IMG/VR virus record: IMGVR_UViG_3300043409_000951
Span: 1 to 43,515 of that record
Direction: 5' to 3' (one strand)
DNA length: 43,515 bases
From: a virus
Made by a program: the position numbers and the translations under genes. The notes beneath the pieces were generated by a model. The model saw only the letters and a list, made by a program, of their open reading frames with translations, did not search any database and was not told where the DNA came from. This document shows, one piece after another, positions 31,208 through 39,236 of this stretch. How positions within the stretch are numbered: the stretch's first letter is position 1; each line of letters begins with the position of its first letter.

Positions 31208-31767
31208 GTCATCACCGCTGCCGCTGCCACTGCAGCCTTAACGCTTGCAAGTGTTCGCGACGGGTCGGCCGCCGCCGGTGCGATGGTTTCATTTTGCACC
31301 CTAGCAAGCCATGCGTCAGCTTCGCTGAGTCGCTCTGCGTCCGCTCGCTGTGCAGCATAGTCGGATACGGTAGTGTCTTTGTACGGCCTGCCGCCATCAA
31401 GAGCGTAGAATGAATCGACAAGCCCGGCTGCCGTTGGATTTAGTGAGGCAACCTGCTGCACCAATCCCCATACAACGACAGCGGACGAAACCTCGATTGT
31501 CTTCAGCGTCGTCAAACTGTCGCCCCAGATTGCAGCAAAAAACTGATCCAATGCAGACCGCTGTTCTGATGTTGCCGTCAGGTACGCTGTCGCCAATGTT
31601 CCGCCCATGCTGCCATCAGGTCTGCGATACCACAATCCTTGTTCACGACTCCACTGCCGGACTCTTTGCGGCTCAATTGGGCCACTAGTCAGGGCCTGCA
31701 GTAATGACACGATCTCCGCGTCAGTTCCGGCGAGGCCTAGCGATTGAGCTTTTTCGTATGCATTCAT
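31204..31767 (-). CDS. Unknown protein upstream of tail appendages
   Basis: 187 aa, helical, Ala-rich, with a Trp/Arg motif WSREQGLWYRRPDG. No signal peptide. The ATG overlaps the upstream stop by one base (TGATGA). Ends in an Ala/Val stretch. In phages, proteins of this kind sometimes sit beside the tail tip; no family recognised. Confidence 0.6.
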   Translation of the reverse strand: MNAYEKAQSLGLAGTDAEIVSLLQALTSGPIEPQRVRQWSREQGLWYRRPDGSMGGTLATAYLTATSEQRSALDQFFAAIWGDSLTTLKTIEVSSAVVVWGLVQQVASLNPTAAGLVDSFYALDGGRPYKDTTVSDYAAQRADAERLSEADAWLARVQNETIAPAAADPSRTLASVKAAVAAAAVMT

Positions 31768-32135
31768 CAGTCATCAACCCTCACGCCAGAACTAATGCTA
31801 ATCTGCTCAAGCCCGATGCCCATTGTGTTAAGCCCTGAACTGGCCCCGATTGCCCGCGAACGAACAGCAGCGTTATAGGTCGCGTTCTGAGTGTCGGTCC
31901 CAATGCCCTGCAAATTCACGCCATGCTGGCATTGAAAGTATGCGTCCTGACATTCCCCGAGTCTCTTCATTGCCGTCCTGCAGTCGCGCATCGCTCCCCG
32001 CAGTGCGTCCTGCTGGAGCTGGCATTTGTCCGGAATAGTTGGCGGTTCCATTACTGTACCGCTCAACTGTGACTGCGTAGCCGTCGCCGCAATCGGCTCG
32101 TTCGACGCTCGTAAGATAGACTCGTCCACTGACAT
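31767..32135 (-). CDS. Cys-containing small protein
   Basis: 122 aa, MSVDESILRASNEP, with GGGAGAAA before the ATG. Central helix has evenly spaced Cys (CQLQQDALRGAMRDCR, GECQDAYFQCQHG), which could form disulfides. Its first 260 or so bases also lie in a second open frame (31873-32349). Of the two, this frame has the better start. Confidence 0.6.
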   Translation of the reverse strand: MSVDESILRASNEPIAATATQSQLSGTVMEPPTIPDKCQLQQDALRGAMRDCRTAMKRLGECQDAYFQCQHGVNLQGIGTDTQNATYNAAVRSRAIGASSGLNTMGIGLEQISISSGVRVDD

Positions 32136-32349
32136 TTTCTCCCTGACTTTTTGCTGCTAAAATTGTGTTACAGACCTGCACCGAGTGATATCCGTACGCT
32201 GATAAAATGCCCGGCGATAACGCCAGCAGCAATCGACTCAGCACCTTGCCGTAGTCGCACCACCGATACGCGTGAAATATACCGGCACCTGCCGCAAAGC
32301 ATAGCCACGAAACAACCAAAGCCCGGTAAAATTCTGTGCTCAGTTCCAT
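31873..32349 (-). CDS. Small membrane protein overlapping the 122-aa gene
   Basis: 158 aa, MELSTEFYRALVV, with two hydrophobic segments (about residues 9-25 and 38-60), then a polar tail of about 90 residues. GGAGTGAG lies 7 or more bases upstream and the start overlaps the preceding stop by 10 nt. The last 260 or so bases overlap the 122-aa gene in another frame, so the tail may be non-coding or truly dual. Holin-like or envelope role possible. Confidence 0.45.
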   Translation of the reverse strand: MELSTEFYRALVVSWLCFAAGAGIFHAYRWCDYGKVLSRLLLALSPGILSAYGYHSVQVCNTILAAKSQGENVSGRVYLTSVERADCGDGYAVTVERYSNGTANYSGQMPAPAGRTAGSDARLQDGNEETRGMSGRILSMPAWREFAGHWDRHSERDL

Positions 32350-32534
32350 ACGAGACTCACTCCGTAGCAAGTCGCCACGATCAATAATGCTGCCGATGCT
32401 GAATACACAATCCAACGCAGATCCGGTCCAATGTGTGCGAGCAGCGTCTGCGCGGTTTCTTTATCAACCGACCCCTCAAAGCCGGGCAGATTGATTTCGA
32501 TTCCGTCGTCTTTTTTGTCGTGCTCGTCACCCAT
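32340..32534 (-). CDS. Small single-span membrane protein (holin-like candidate)
   Basis: 64 aa from ATG at 32534 (MGDEHDKKDDG); a GTG two codons earlier is possible. Charged N-terminus, one C-terminal membrane segment (WIVYSASAALLIVATCYGVSL). Follows the exported thioredoxin-like gene. The size and layout fit a holin or other small membrane protein, but no family is recognised. Confidence 0.55.
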   Translation of the reverse strand: MGDEHDKKDDGIEINLPGFEGSVDKETAQTLLAHIGPDLRWIVYSASAALLIVATCYGVSLVWN

Positions 32535-32579
32535 CGCCACCCGTCCGGCTGGATTCCTTTACTTGTTTTCACCACTATG

Positions 32580-32993
32580 CTAATCACCAGAGGCTCCAGA
32601 CGCAACACAATCCGACACGATGCCGCTCAGCGTCCCCCGCGCGTACCCTGTCCGCGTGACCTGTTTCCCGCTCGAATCGACCCACCGAAAAGCCGGAATC
32701 TGTCCTGAAAATTTCACGAATCGAATCTCCACTGGCAATTCTCCGGCCATCGCCAGATCCGCTTTCAGCACTCGACACGGCGCACACCATTCCTCAGTAT
32801 GAATTTCCAACACCGGCTTTGCCGCCGCTGCCTTTGGTGCAGCTTTCGCCTCCAGATCGCTGACACGGGATTCCAACGCTGCCACCCTCGCAAGTAGTGT
32901 GACTGCGTCCGCAACGGTCGAAGGCGACTCGTCCGCAATTCCAGCCAACGACAACGCCACGCAAGATGCCATAAAAATCAATAGCGTTCGCAT
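32580..32993 (-). CDS. Exported thioredoxin-like protein
   Basis: 137 aa. Signal peptide (MRTLLIFMASCVALSLAG), a short coiled coil at about 28-50, an Ala/Lys linker, then a thioredoxin-like domain with TEEWCAPCRVLKADL: the CAPC active site is at residues 70-73. Acts outside the cytoplasm, reducing or forming disulfides. The ATG overlaps the peptidase stop (TGATG). A secreted disulfide enzyme next to a Cys-containing peptidase and a Cys-containing small protein suggests that they work together (inference). Confidence 0.8.
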   Translation of the reverse strand: MRTLLIFMASCVALSLAGIADESPSTVADAVTLLARVAALESRVSDLEAKAAPKAAAAKPVLEIHTEEWCAPCRVLKADLAMAGELPVEIRFVKFSGQIPAFRWVDSSGKQVTRTGYARGTLSGIVSDCVASGASGD

Positions 32994-33844
32994 CAGAAGT
33001 ATCCTCCACCTTGTGTGATTCTGTCATACCGTTCCACCATTCGATCCGGTGCCAGCAAAAAGCCCCCGAACGGCTCGCATTGCGTTTTTTGCAATGCGTC
33101 ATAACAACGCCGACTCATCAGGTAGTAGCCATCGCCGTGAGAATTCCAGACAGCCAGATACCACTGGTTATCGTGCTCTTCAGCCCAGATGATTTCGGTC
33201 GCATGTCCACCGCCAGACCGAGGTTCCGAATCCATGCACCTCCGCCCGTCGACCTGCTTCCACGACACACCCCAAAAGGTGCCAATATGAATTGACGAAC
33301 CTGCAGCAACAGCCGCCAGTGCTCCGTCCCAATCCGGCATTGGCCCCGACTCTGTGACGTGGGCCGCTTCAATCTTCAGCCCGCTGCAATGTCTGCGAAA
33401 CTCTGTTGCACTCCGGCACCACCGAGAGTACGGCCATGCGGATTCAATCGGAATTCCCGCAGCCAATCCCAGCTTCAAAACGCCGTCGACCAGCAACCGC
33501 ACACCGCTGTGAATTGACGTGCCCTGATCCTTTCCGACCTGCCCTTCGCTCATCAGGAATTCACTGGCCTGATAGGCGTACGTCTCCGACAATGTCGGCA
33601 TGACCTGACGCCCCGAACAGTACCACGTGCGGTATTCCTCGCCGTTCGCCGTCGCGTTCCCCTGGCAATCGTTTCGCGATTGCCGTTCCACCTGCATCAC
33701 CCGAAGCGGACTGTTTTTCGGATCGCGAAGCACGTCCAGATAACCGCTGAAGTCAGACGCCCTGACCACAGGCACCGACATTGTTTCTGTAACTGCTATC
33801 CGCTCTGCGTCAGAAGGCCTGAACAATCCGCTATTTCCTGGCAT
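32993..33844 (-). CDS. Papain-like (C1 family) cysteine peptidase
   Basis: 283 aa from the ATG at 33844, with AGGAGATACACCA upstream. A papain-like triad is visible in order: Cys60 in SRNDCQGNATANGEE, His214 in GGGHATEIIW, Asn234 in AVWNSHGDGYY. No signal peptide is evident with this start. It could be a virion-associated or released peptidase acting on surface protein, or take the place of a muralytic enzyme, since no classical lysin is found. Planctomycete-type hosts with proteinaceous envelopes would fit (inference). Confidence 0.8.
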   Translation of the reverse strand: MPGNSGLFRPSDAERIAVTETMSVPVVRASDFSGYLDVLRDPKNSPLRVMQVERQSRNDCQGNATANGEEYRTWYCSGRQVMPTLSETYAYQASEFLMSEGQVGKDQGTSIHSGVRLLVDGVLKLGLAAGIPIESAWPYSRWCRSATEFRRHCSGLKIEAAHVTESGPMPDWDGALAAVAAGSSIHIGTFWGVSWKQVDGRRCMDSEPRSGGGHATEIIWAEEHDNQWYLAVWNSHGDGYYLMSRRCYDALQKTQCEPFGGFLLAPDRMVERYDRITQGGGYF

Positions 33845-34526
33845 TGGTGTATCTCCTGATCCATGCAGCCTGCTTTTGTGCAGTCCATCCGTCACCACCA
33901 AACGCCACAGACTCAGCCCGAAGCAATGGCAGAAAAGAATCCTTTCTTGCCTGCAGATTCGCCGCACCGAACCACTCGGCCGCCATCGCTTCGGACGTGA
34001 TTTCCCCGCGTTCCAATCTGTCCGCTAAGTCCCCCTGTGCCGCTCGCCACGCCCGCTCGTACGCCAGAAAAGCCACAGCCACATCATCGGCTGGAATGTC
34101 CGGATTCGGCTGTATCGGATCAGTCTGCTGAACTGACCGAACCGTCAGCCCTCGCCGCCGCATTTCTGACAGATCCTGACTGCCCGCCGGTAAGATTATC
34201 AACTCAACAGAACCTGCTGCCAGTCCTCGCAAGACATAGCCGTTTGCCCTCGTGACTTGCCGTTCTTCCAGCCCTTTGCCGCCAGCGAATTTCGAGAAGA
34301 TAACTGACCCTGATTTCGCCGGAGTGACCTGCACGACTCCCGGAGGCGAGGGAATGATATGCAAGGCAACATCCGACGAAATCAGGTAGAGTTCATCGGT
34401 CGCGAATTCCTCGACCTCAGGCGGTTGTGGGGCTTCCTCGATCTCTTCCCGAGGCGGTCGCATACCTTCCGGGAAGTCGATAGTCGGCGGTTGAAACAGA
34501 CAGCACAACAGCAGCAGAATCTGCAT
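33831..34526 (-). CDS. Exported unknown protein
   Basis: 231 aa from the ATG at 34526, AAGGAG 8 bases upstream. Short signal peptide (MQILLLLCCLFQPP) with a possible lipobox-like LCC, then a Pro/Glu-rich stretch. A beta-rich domain (DELYLISSDVALHIIPS) follows, then a helical domain. No enzyme motif. Between exported proteins in the lysis-candidate region; might be a lipoprotein/spanin-like partner. Confidence 0.6.
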   Translation of the reverse strand: MQILLLLCCLFQPPTIDFPEGMRPPREEIEEAPQPPEVEEFATDELYLISSDVALHIIPSPPGVVQVTPAKSGSVIFSKFAGGKGLEERQVTRANGYVLRGLAAGSVELIILPAGSQDLSEMRRRGLTVRSVQQTDPIQPNPDIPADDVAVAFLAYERAWRAAQGDLADRLERGEITSEAMAAEWFGAANLQARKDSFLPLLRAESVAFGGDGWTAQKQAAWIRRYTNARK

Positions 34527-34531
34527 CACAA

Positions 34532-34987
34532 TCACTCCTTGCAGGCTGCCACAATCGCAGACGCCTTAGCCGCTGGCAATGTCATAAACGTTCCGATGCC
34601 ATGATCGACGATTCGCAGAGCCGCTGGCGTGTCAATTTGGTATCGCCCGACGTCTGCAGGCAGTCCGGTCTTCTTCGCTTTCCGGCGTTCCTCTCCCCGC
34701 AGTCGTCGACATTCGGCCAGAATCTTCGACGCCCCCGCGTTCCGCTGTTTTACTGCTAACTTCGCGTCTGAGTTGTGATCAGACACTGACTGCTGCACTT
34801 CCTGATCGTTGTCAATTCCACGGCATTTTTTCAGGAAATTGATCAGCATTGGCCCGAGTGTACTAATCAGCGAAAGGATCGTTATCGGATCAAATTGGAC
34901 CGTCTGACCCTCGTCGCCTTCGCAGACCATCGCCCCGGTTTTGTTCGCCACGGTTTTGAAGAAATCGTCTACCAGCTTATTTGCCAC
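34532..34987 (-). CDS. Unknown protein of the lysis-candidate region
   Basis: 151 aa from GTG with GGAGG upstream. Has a hydrophobic segment (DPITILSLISTLGPMLINFLKK) that may be membrane-associated, then a basic helical region (RRLRGEERRKAKK). No family recognised. Overlaps the previous gene by 11 nt. Confidence 0.6.
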   Translation of the reverse strand: MANKLVDDFFKTVANKTGAMVCEGDEGQTVQFDPITILSLISTLGPMLINFLKKCRGIDNDQEVQQSVSDHNSDAKLAVKQRNAGASKILAECRRLRGEERRKAKKTGLPADVGRYQIDTPAALRIVDHGIGTFMTLPAAKASAIVAACKE

Positions 34988-35366
34988 GCCTGCACCTCCA
35001 AACCCAAATCCCGTAAACCCTGACCGCCGACCACATGGCCAGCCGTCGATATTTGCCTACACCAGCCTCACGCAACAGCCGCAAAAAAATCGCGTCCATG
35101 ATTGTCCTGTCTTCGATACACGTTGCCTCGTTGCATCCGATGTCATGCCAGAGACTGGCCCAGCGATATTCAGGCGAAAGAGGATGCCCGAAAATCCACT
35201 GTGACCACCACGGGATTGACGCGCCGTCCCATGAAAAATCGGCCCGAAGGCTATGCCCAACATAGGTGCCGCCCAACCACATATTGATTTCGATCGGCCT
35301 CAGCAGCGTCAATCGCTGGCCGTCGCTGCAGACTGGAAGATCGTTGCCGTTTGTGATTGTGCTCAC
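34977..35366 (-). CDS. DUF1353 family protein
   Basis: 129 aa from GTG overlapping the DUF1508 stop (GTGA). The core FSWDGASIPWWSQWIFG then SLWHDIGC and DAIFLRLLREAGV is the DUF1353 signature, found in many phages, often near lysis genes. Biochemical function unknown. The conserved Trp/His/Asp residues hint at a small enzyme or metal site. Confidence 0.8.
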   Translation of the reverse strand: MSTITNGNDLPVCSDGQRLTLLRPIEINMWLGGTYVGHSLRADFSWDGASIPWWSQWIFGHPLSPEYRWASLWHDIGCNEATCIEDRTIMDAIFLRLLREAGVGKYRRLAMWSAVRVYGIWVWRCRRGK

Positions 35367-38346: not shown

Positions 38347-39195
38347 TCAAACCCCACACATGCCCTCACAATCCATGTCCGCCCAGCTCATTTTTCGCTG
38401 TCTGTCTGGAGGATCTGGCCTTAACTGCACAAGCTCAAGCGGCGTGCATGACTTGTGCAAATACTGCTGCGCTATCATGCCTATCATGCCTCTCGTGCAA
38501 GCACTTGAGGGATCTCGAATCGCATTATCAATCTCAACAGCTCTTGCCCAGCCTTGCGGGTCGCTGTCTCGCAACGCAATCCATTCCGAATCTCGCTTGT
38601 ATGGACAAAACACACACGCTGACCGAGACACTGCATAGCCGGGTAATCGCTTAGCCAAATAAGCCACGCAATCTTCCCGCGTCATCATGTCGTCAAAAAG
38701 TGGAAATTCTGGGATCCATCGTGGTTTTGCGTTTGCGCGTACTCGATCAACCCTGCGCGGCTCATCATACGACAAACCGAATAACTGCGTGATAGTCACT
38801 CCTTTCGGTATCGGGTTGCCTTTTGGCACCCCGATCCGTTGTCTTAGAAACTGCTCAATCGGCAGAATCTTATATTCAGACGTGCATTGCCTGCGCCCAA
38901 TTGACGACCGCTCCCCGTCGATAGATAAATGTGCAGGAATACTGACAAATCGCTGTCCGGTAGAATTCACACCGTTCACCAAATTATCTCCGAGATTACC
39001 TCGGCTGACTGTGTGAATCTCCGGGCCGCCAAGTGTTTTTAGTAACTCCAGATGCTCATATACCGCCCGGGGCTCGTCGCCGACGTCTGCAAAAACTGCA
39101 AAGTCAACTGAAGGCAAATCGCCGTCCATAATCATCAAAAACAAAGCTGTACTCTGCACACCTGCGCCCAAATTCAAGACCCGTAATGACTGCAT
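38347..39195 (-). CDS. PAPS-reductase-family nucleotide hydrolase
   Basis: 282 aa from ATG at 39195 (AAAGGAG 7 bases before). The adenine-nucleotide alpha-hydrolase P-loop is NLGAGVQST (8-16), followed by VDFAVFADVGDEPRAVYEHL, typical of phage PAPS-reductase-like proteins. Later Cys in GRRQCTSEYK and SACVFCPYKRDSEW could hold a metal. Relatives activate substrates with ATP; DndC-type members modify DNA with sulfur. Whether this one acts on DNA, tRNA or a metabolite is unknown. Confidence 0.8.
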   Translation of the reverse strand: MQSLRVLNLGAGVQSTALFLMIMDGDLPSVDFAVFADVGDEPRAVYEHLELLKTLGGPEIHTVSRGNLGDNLVNGVNSTGQRFVSIPAHLSIDGERSSIGRRQCTSEYKILPIEQFLRQRIGVPKGNPIPKGVTITQLFGLSYDEPRRVDRVRANAKPRWIPEFPLFDDMMTREDCVAYLAKRLPGYAVSRSACVFCPYKRDSEWIALRDSDPQGWARAVEIDNAIRDPSSACTRGMIGMIAQQYLHKSCTPLELVQLRPDPPDRQRKMSWADMDCEGMCGV

Positions 39196-39217
39196 CTCCA
39201 AACTCCTTTCCCCGATT

Positions 39218-39236
39218 TCAGATGTCAAGTGTTGCT
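39218..39236 (-). repeat. 19-bp duplicated upstream element, copy 1
   Basis: TCAGATGTCAAGTGTTGCT, upstream of the PAPS-reductase-family gene, next to the stop of the zinc-finger gene. Minus strand AGCAACACTTGACATCTGA. May be a promoter part or regulator site shared with the copy at 38321. Confidence 0.55.

Follow-up and report, generated by a model that had tools for sequence, protein, structure and literature searches.

A conserved phage gene run with a papain-like peptidase and an exported thioredoxin-like protein as a candidate lysis cassette

Double-stranded DNA phages usually lyse their hosts by means of an endolysin that degrades the cell wall. Here we describe a run of phage genes, conserved in content and order, that encodes a papain-like cysteine peptidase flanked by exported and membrane proteins in genomes where none of six muralytic families was detected; in three relatives, a holin gene directly precedes the peptidase and the exported protein beside it. 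On balance, and with modest confidence, we favour the interpretation that the run is a phage lysis (envelope-exit) cassette, in which the peptidase, released by a holin, would replace the muralytic endolysin, while a thioredoxin/DsbC-like protein (Trx), a further exported protein (EXP) and a DUF1353 protein would assist it. Phage lysis cassettes as such are known; one with a papain-like enzyme at the endolysin position would be new. If, with an exported redox protein as partner, a papain-like protease takes the place of a murein hydrolase here, host lysis would gain a further route, and such phages would allow a direct test of whether the barrier in certain bacterial walls is made of protein rather than peptidoglycan.

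Gene layout and conservation of the run

The window, that is, the whole stretch of DNA analysed, comprises the 43,515 bases of one virus record in IMG/VR, with every called gene on the minus strand. Its relative G001 has a 127-base terminal repeat and aligns to 87% of the window with 87% identity; since both ends of the window map to one place in G001, the window is a nearly complete genome.

The gene run (31767-35366, minus strand) is tightly packed. The preliminary description had delimited it as 32340-34526, and all the genes described there are present, but the run continues upstream beyond these coordinates, up to the DUF1353 gene (35366-34977) that forms its edge. In the order of transcription, the genes from the primase on, followed by tail-fibre-like genes, are:

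38185-36020, minus strand: primase, at the start of the transcribed order
34977..35366, minus strand: DUF1353 protein (PF07087, Pfam E 2.7e-13; His74-Asp75...Asp91), probable phospholipase A2 as judged from its sequence
34532..34987, minus strand: conserved 151-aa protein with one weakly hydrophobic segment by hydropathy; in 31/48 loci
33831..34526, minus strand: EXP, hydrophobic at the N-terminus (export signal or anchor) and ending in a conserved helical domain; in 48/48 loci
32993..33844, minus strand: papain-like cysteine peptidase, 283 aa, without a signal peptide (Gln55, Cys60, His214, Asn234)
32580..32993, minus strand: exported thioredoxin/DsbC-like protein with WCAPC (C70, C73 and P100 invariant; PDB profile matches)
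32340..32540, minus strand: 66-aa protein with a single C-terminal hydrophobic segment by hydropathy, candidate membrane partner; in 29/48 loci
31873..32349, minus strand: candidate holin of 158 aa, with two hydrophobic segments; in 26/48 loci
31767..32135, minus strand: 122-aa protein, its frame overlapping the 158-aa gene; related frames in 25/48 loci

Export signals and membrane segments were called from hydropathy and by eye. They bear out the earlier mention of a second exported protein, namely EXP (34526-33831, N-terminal hydrophobic segment), and of small membrane proteins (32540-32340 with one segment, 32349-31873 with two). The 151-aa, 66-aa and 158-aa proteins had no match in a Pfam search. 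From EXP through the peptidase to Trx, the end of each gene overlaps the start of the next, and each has a Shine-Dalgarno-like sequence; thus, the three proteins are very probably co-translated.

The 158-aa and 122-aa genes (31767-32349) overlap out of frame by about 260 bases, both frames having counterparts in about 25 relatives. Elsewhere in the window, a PAPS-reductase-like gene (38347-39228, phrog_424) is absent from the other 15 genomes compared.

The peptidase family comprises about 50 loci in IMG/VR; a pattern scan of GTDB genome contigs and a search of INPHARED phages yielded no members. As the loci were gathered via the peptidase, its own count is uninformative, while the counts of its neighbours are informative. 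Among 48 loci, the peptidase is accompanied by EXP in 48, the 151-aa protein in 31, Trx in 31, the one-segment 66-aa protein in 29, the two-segment 158-aa protein in 26, and the DUF1353 protein in 13, all these numbers being lower bounds, as some loci are short. The most distant EXP members retain just the N-terminal hydrophobic segment and the C-terminal domain, and a search for EXP in phages found none. Capsid and terminase clusters are common to only 6-7 of 16 genomes; thus, EXP and the peptidase stay together although the structural modules around them differ. Conversely, one clade lacks Trx or has another protein in its stead, and only 11 of 27 genomes have DUF1353, hence neither can be essential.

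The papain-like peptidase and its exported partner

The peptidase starts with the ATG at 33844, preceded by AGGAG, and the product has 283 aa. A GTG start at 33967 was rejected, as it merely overlaps the upstream gene and the family begins at or near the ATG.

The gene had been described earlier as a C1-type peptidase with a full triad. The triad stands: in an alignment of 26 members, down to 46% identity, Gln55, Cys60, His214 and Asn234 are invariant, as are the stretches Asp-Cys60-Gln-Gly-Asn-Ala, Gly-Gly-Gly-His214-Ala and Trp-Asn234-Ser-His-Gly, and Cys60 is the sole invariant cysteine of the family. Thus, the triad is not a chance pattern. The order of Cys, His and Asn, with an upstream Gln, is that of peptidase family C1 (papain, cathepsins, bacterial C1 enzymes), and several surrounding landmarks are common as well; however, C1 has Asn-Ser-Trp-Gly where the window family has Asn-Ser-His-Gly, and the latter matches nothing in Pfam, NCBIfam or PDB by itself. 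PF00112 matched none of the 26 members up to E 10, direct identification through Pfam, PHROG, NCBIfam or PDB gave nothing, and in Pfam and the PDB neither single sequences nor profiles produced a C1 match.

The link to C1 comes only via phage papain homologues, which form a bridge. In hhalign, the peptidase family aligned to a phage papain-like family (A6) with score 41.5 and E 3.5e-5, the Cys, His and Asn being in register; the controls reached at most 20.8 for 30 column-shuffled versions and 19.2 for the reversed one. Some A6 members, in turn, match Pfam Peptidase_C1, and the A6 profile matches the papain profile with E 1.6e-15 and solved C1 peptidases with best E 2e-14. A direct hhalign comparison of the peptidase family with a small papain profile was non-significant, with the His/Asn region in register. 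The argument rests on the database sequences matched by the papain query, not on the query itself. Judging from these alignments, the peptidase is papain-like and only a putative member of family C1. An AlphaFold2 model from a 6-sequence alignment had pLDDT 33.6 and was set aside.

If the cassette is lytic, the peptidase might still be a divergent papain-fold peptidoglycan endopeptidase or amidase, akin to CHAP or NlpC/P60, so that its target would be conventional and Trx incidental. Phage lysins that have a papain fold and attack peptidoglycan are well established (PMC10318531); moreover, Planctomycetes, plausible hosts of at least part of the group (see below), are reported to possess peptidoglycan. 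However, the profile fits the C1-type phage homologues, with no match to the domains of C39 lysin A or amidase compared with it (the highest score of the alignments to C39 lysin A, amidase and holin was 14.1, and a hidden C39-type lysin A or amidase was rejected for want of similarity), CHAP had no match in any genome searched, and no separate wall-binding domain is apparent within the 283 aa. We consider this alternative rather unlikely.

Several further features of the family were observed. The C-terminus of the peptidase carries a near-invariant Gly-Gly-Gly-Tyr (window 32993-33030 and relatives), which the phage papain homologues do not have. In locus L029 (3538-4410), the peptidase is 53% identical to that of the window amid neighbours with 77-99% identity, hence the gene was probably replaced by recombination. 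In locus L044 (8001-8765, genome G014), two TGA codons or a frameshift interrupt the reading frame of the peptidase and Trx has no CxxC, indicating either decay or a sequencing error.

The adjacent gene (32993-32580) had been read as an exported CAPC thioredoxin-like protein, and this reading holds. The protein has a hydrophobic N-terminus, a coiled-coil-like N-terminal stretch and WCAPC; C70, C73 and P100 are invariant in the 13-member alignment, and the CxxC is kept in 30 of 31 family members. In a profile search of the PDB, DsbC-type proteins ranked highest (E 1.2e-5) and thioredoxin was matched as well, so the CxxC, the conserved proline and the Trx-fold profile match expected of the thioredoxin superfamily are all present, while the single-sequence match to Pfam Thioredoxin_7 scored 21.4 bits, under the cut-off of 27. 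Like DsbC, the protein is exported, with C-x-x-C and the conserved proline, and its best PDB profile matches are of the DsbC type; it differs from DsbC in being short, in having WCxPC as in thioredoxin, and in the coiled-coil-like stretch. Searches for this protein in phages and in plasmids yielded none. In one clade (L061 2670-3419, same place in G017), the Trx position is filled by an unrelated lipoprotein-like protein with no recognisable domain.

Evidence bearing on lysis

The earlier remark that no lysozyme, amidase or transglycosylase is seen in the window agrees with our searches. Searches in all six reading frames, of the window as well as of 26 relatives, found no Phage_lysozyme, CHAP, Amidase_2, SLT, Peptidase_M15_3 or Peptidase_M23, while control genomes matched in every one of these searches. 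Pfam scans of the gene calls, which left out some long tail proteins and short ORFs, had no muralytic candidate among the best 25 families listed, the families ranked below these having weak E-values. Within the peptidase itself, no known muralytic domain is present.

A holin (PF23987, E about 1e-18) is encoded directly upstream of the EXP-peptidase pair in three relatives (G012, G019, G020). In the other relatives, small hydrophobic proteins at this position fall under the cut-off of every model, and none of the window's own membrane proteins matches a holin model above the cut-off. The peptidase has no signal peptide, while the products of both flanking genes have one, which is what would be expected for an enzyme released by a holin. 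In this respect the family resembles the classical holin-endolysin cassettes: a signal-less putative hydrolase with, in three relatives, a holin neighbour.

The closest precedents come from phages of Gordonia and Arthrobacter. The Gordonia phages Aleemily, Sixama, GMA2 and Lilbeanie have a papain homologue between lysin A and an annotated holin, and in Arthrobacter phage Mufasa8 it is near lysin A. These "cysteine proteases" (Aleemily gp29, Sixama gp109, GMA2, Lilbeanie gp40, Mufasa8 gp26) are likewise papain-like, signal-less and situated in the lysis region, with Cys, His and Asn in register; the difference is that they accompany lysin A (in some phages also lysin B), whereas in the window no other wall enzyme was found and EXP and Trx are additional. 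In mycobacteriophages, Streptomyces phages and jumbo phages, on the other hand, the papain homologue is outside lysis cassettes.

The DUF1353 protein matches PF07087 with 49.8 bits against a cut-off of 22.5, and H74, D75 and D91 are invariant in 10 relatives. TtaP, the founding member of the family, has been characterised as a phospholipase A2 that relies on a His/Asp dyad (PMC11525133), and the His-Asp and downstream Asp are conserved in the window protein; the spacing from His to the second Asp is 17 as compared to 15 in TtaP, so that D91 is equated by motif. We consider the protein a probable phospholipase A2. TtaP is encoded in a bacterial islet, whereas the window protein belongs to a phage gene run and is known from sequence alone. 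Pfam searches found DUF1353 in 11 of 27 genomes, partly far from the cassette. In Fusobacterium phage FNU_1P, the DUF1353 gene lies between the endolysin and the holin, and in Nitratiruptor phage NrS-3 it is near a lysozyme. In PHROGs (phrog_1158) and in several GenBank phage records, the family is labelled "tail assembly chaperone", which conflicts with the phospholipase A2 activity demonstrated for one member.

Several lines of evidence thus point to lysis: the absence of six muralytic families from 27 genomes, the PF23987 holin adjoining the pair in three relatives, retention of EXP and the peptidase while the capsid modules change, the Gordonia precedents, and the lysis-region DUF1353 genes of FNU_1P and NrS-3. 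They lend contextual support to the peptidase-based exit put forward in the preliminary description, against which stand the lack of a holin-model match in the window and the occurrence of papain homologues elsewhere in several phage groups. The scheme that follows is predicted in all its activities, timing and substrates. One of the small membrane proteins would act as the holin, letting the signal-less peptidase leave the cytoplasm. The peptidase would then cut peptide bonds of the host envelope, in wall protein or, equally, in peptidoglycan as the papain-fold CHAP lysins do, taking the place of a muralytic endolysin. Trx might reduce disulfides of the wall, and so open a Cys-linked protein envelope as suggested earlier, or it might keep Cys60 of the peptidase reduced in the oxidising periplasm. 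EXP would serve as an exported or membrane-anchored helper, and the DUF1353 protein, where encoded, may attack membrane phospholipid. A precedent for phage lysis enzymes cutting peptide (isopeptide) bonds of a non-murein wall is provided by the archaeal PeiW and PeiP (PMC4592898); these are pseudomurein isopeptidases, whereas the run in the window also includes the exported Trx-like protein and a member of DUF1353.

The same neighbourhood allows for two other readings. The peptidase could be a virion or entry protein, or act on host surface proteins at adsorption, in partnership with the tail-fibre-like genes directly downstream of the cassette. The lack of a signal peptide is compatible with this as well, and so is the strong divergence of the peptidase alone in L029, which is otherwise close to the window. 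Yet the peptidase gene is coupled between two genes of exported proteins, the holin is immediately upstream in three relatives, and the EXP-peptidase pair is retained when the structural genes change; hence we regard a role in the virion or at entry as improbable.

Alternatively, the genes could be accessory, functioning in host takeover, superinfection exclusion or stress defence, and the real lysis enzyme would be an unrecognised protein encoded elsewhere. Many proteins of these genomes match no family, thioredoxins of freshwater phages were read as oxidative-stress genes (PMC6802176), and papain homologues outside lysis cassettes do occur. Against this, the peptidase is adjoined by a holin in three relatives, the six muralytic family searches revealed no other lysin, and stress thioredoxins are cytosolic, whereas the Trx-like protein is exported. 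An accessory role therefore seems to us quite improbable too.

Candidate hosts and their walls

A clue to the host comes from plasmid pPLIM01 of Planctopirus limnophila (NC_014149, L123), which carries terminase, portal, capsid and tape-measure genes, and, given this complete complement of head and tail genes, looks like a phage-plasmid. Over 193 aa, its tape-measure protein and that of relative G013 are 52% identical; the identity to the window's counterpart is 27%, and one small protein of the plasmid is 51% identical to a protein of G009, whose best INPHARED match has about 38%. In a plasmid search with the tape-measure protein, Planctopirus was the best match by far (50.8% versus about 31% or less). 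These virion genes, shared by some relatives with pPLIM01, link the group indirectly to Planctomycetota and suggest planctomycete hosts for at least a part of it, the window's own similarity being modest. The genes of the cassette could serve as markers for recognising a little-known set of phages, those of one host group, which is probably the Planctomycetes.

The cassette itself is absent from pPLIM01. The plasmid has no annotated lysin, and none of the four muralytic families searched matched it; a weak DUF1353 match inside its ParB gene was judged spurious. The frequency of Shine-Dalgarno sequences was also considered as a host clue and was uninformative.

The lysis interpretation can be extended to a more specific one: phages of Planctomycetota would exit without a murein hydrolase, a holin-released papain-like protease digesting a Cys-rich protein wall after an exported thiol-disulfide enzyme has opened its disulfides, with phospholipase A2 helping in some. 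We put this forward tentatively, as a possibility that in its full form is doubtful. In P. limnophila, most genes of peptidoglycan synthesis are non-essential, and a Cys-rich domain, YTV, which is a suggested regulator of wall rigidity, occurs in the class Planctomycetia (PMC10632474); both would fit the idea of a protein wall.
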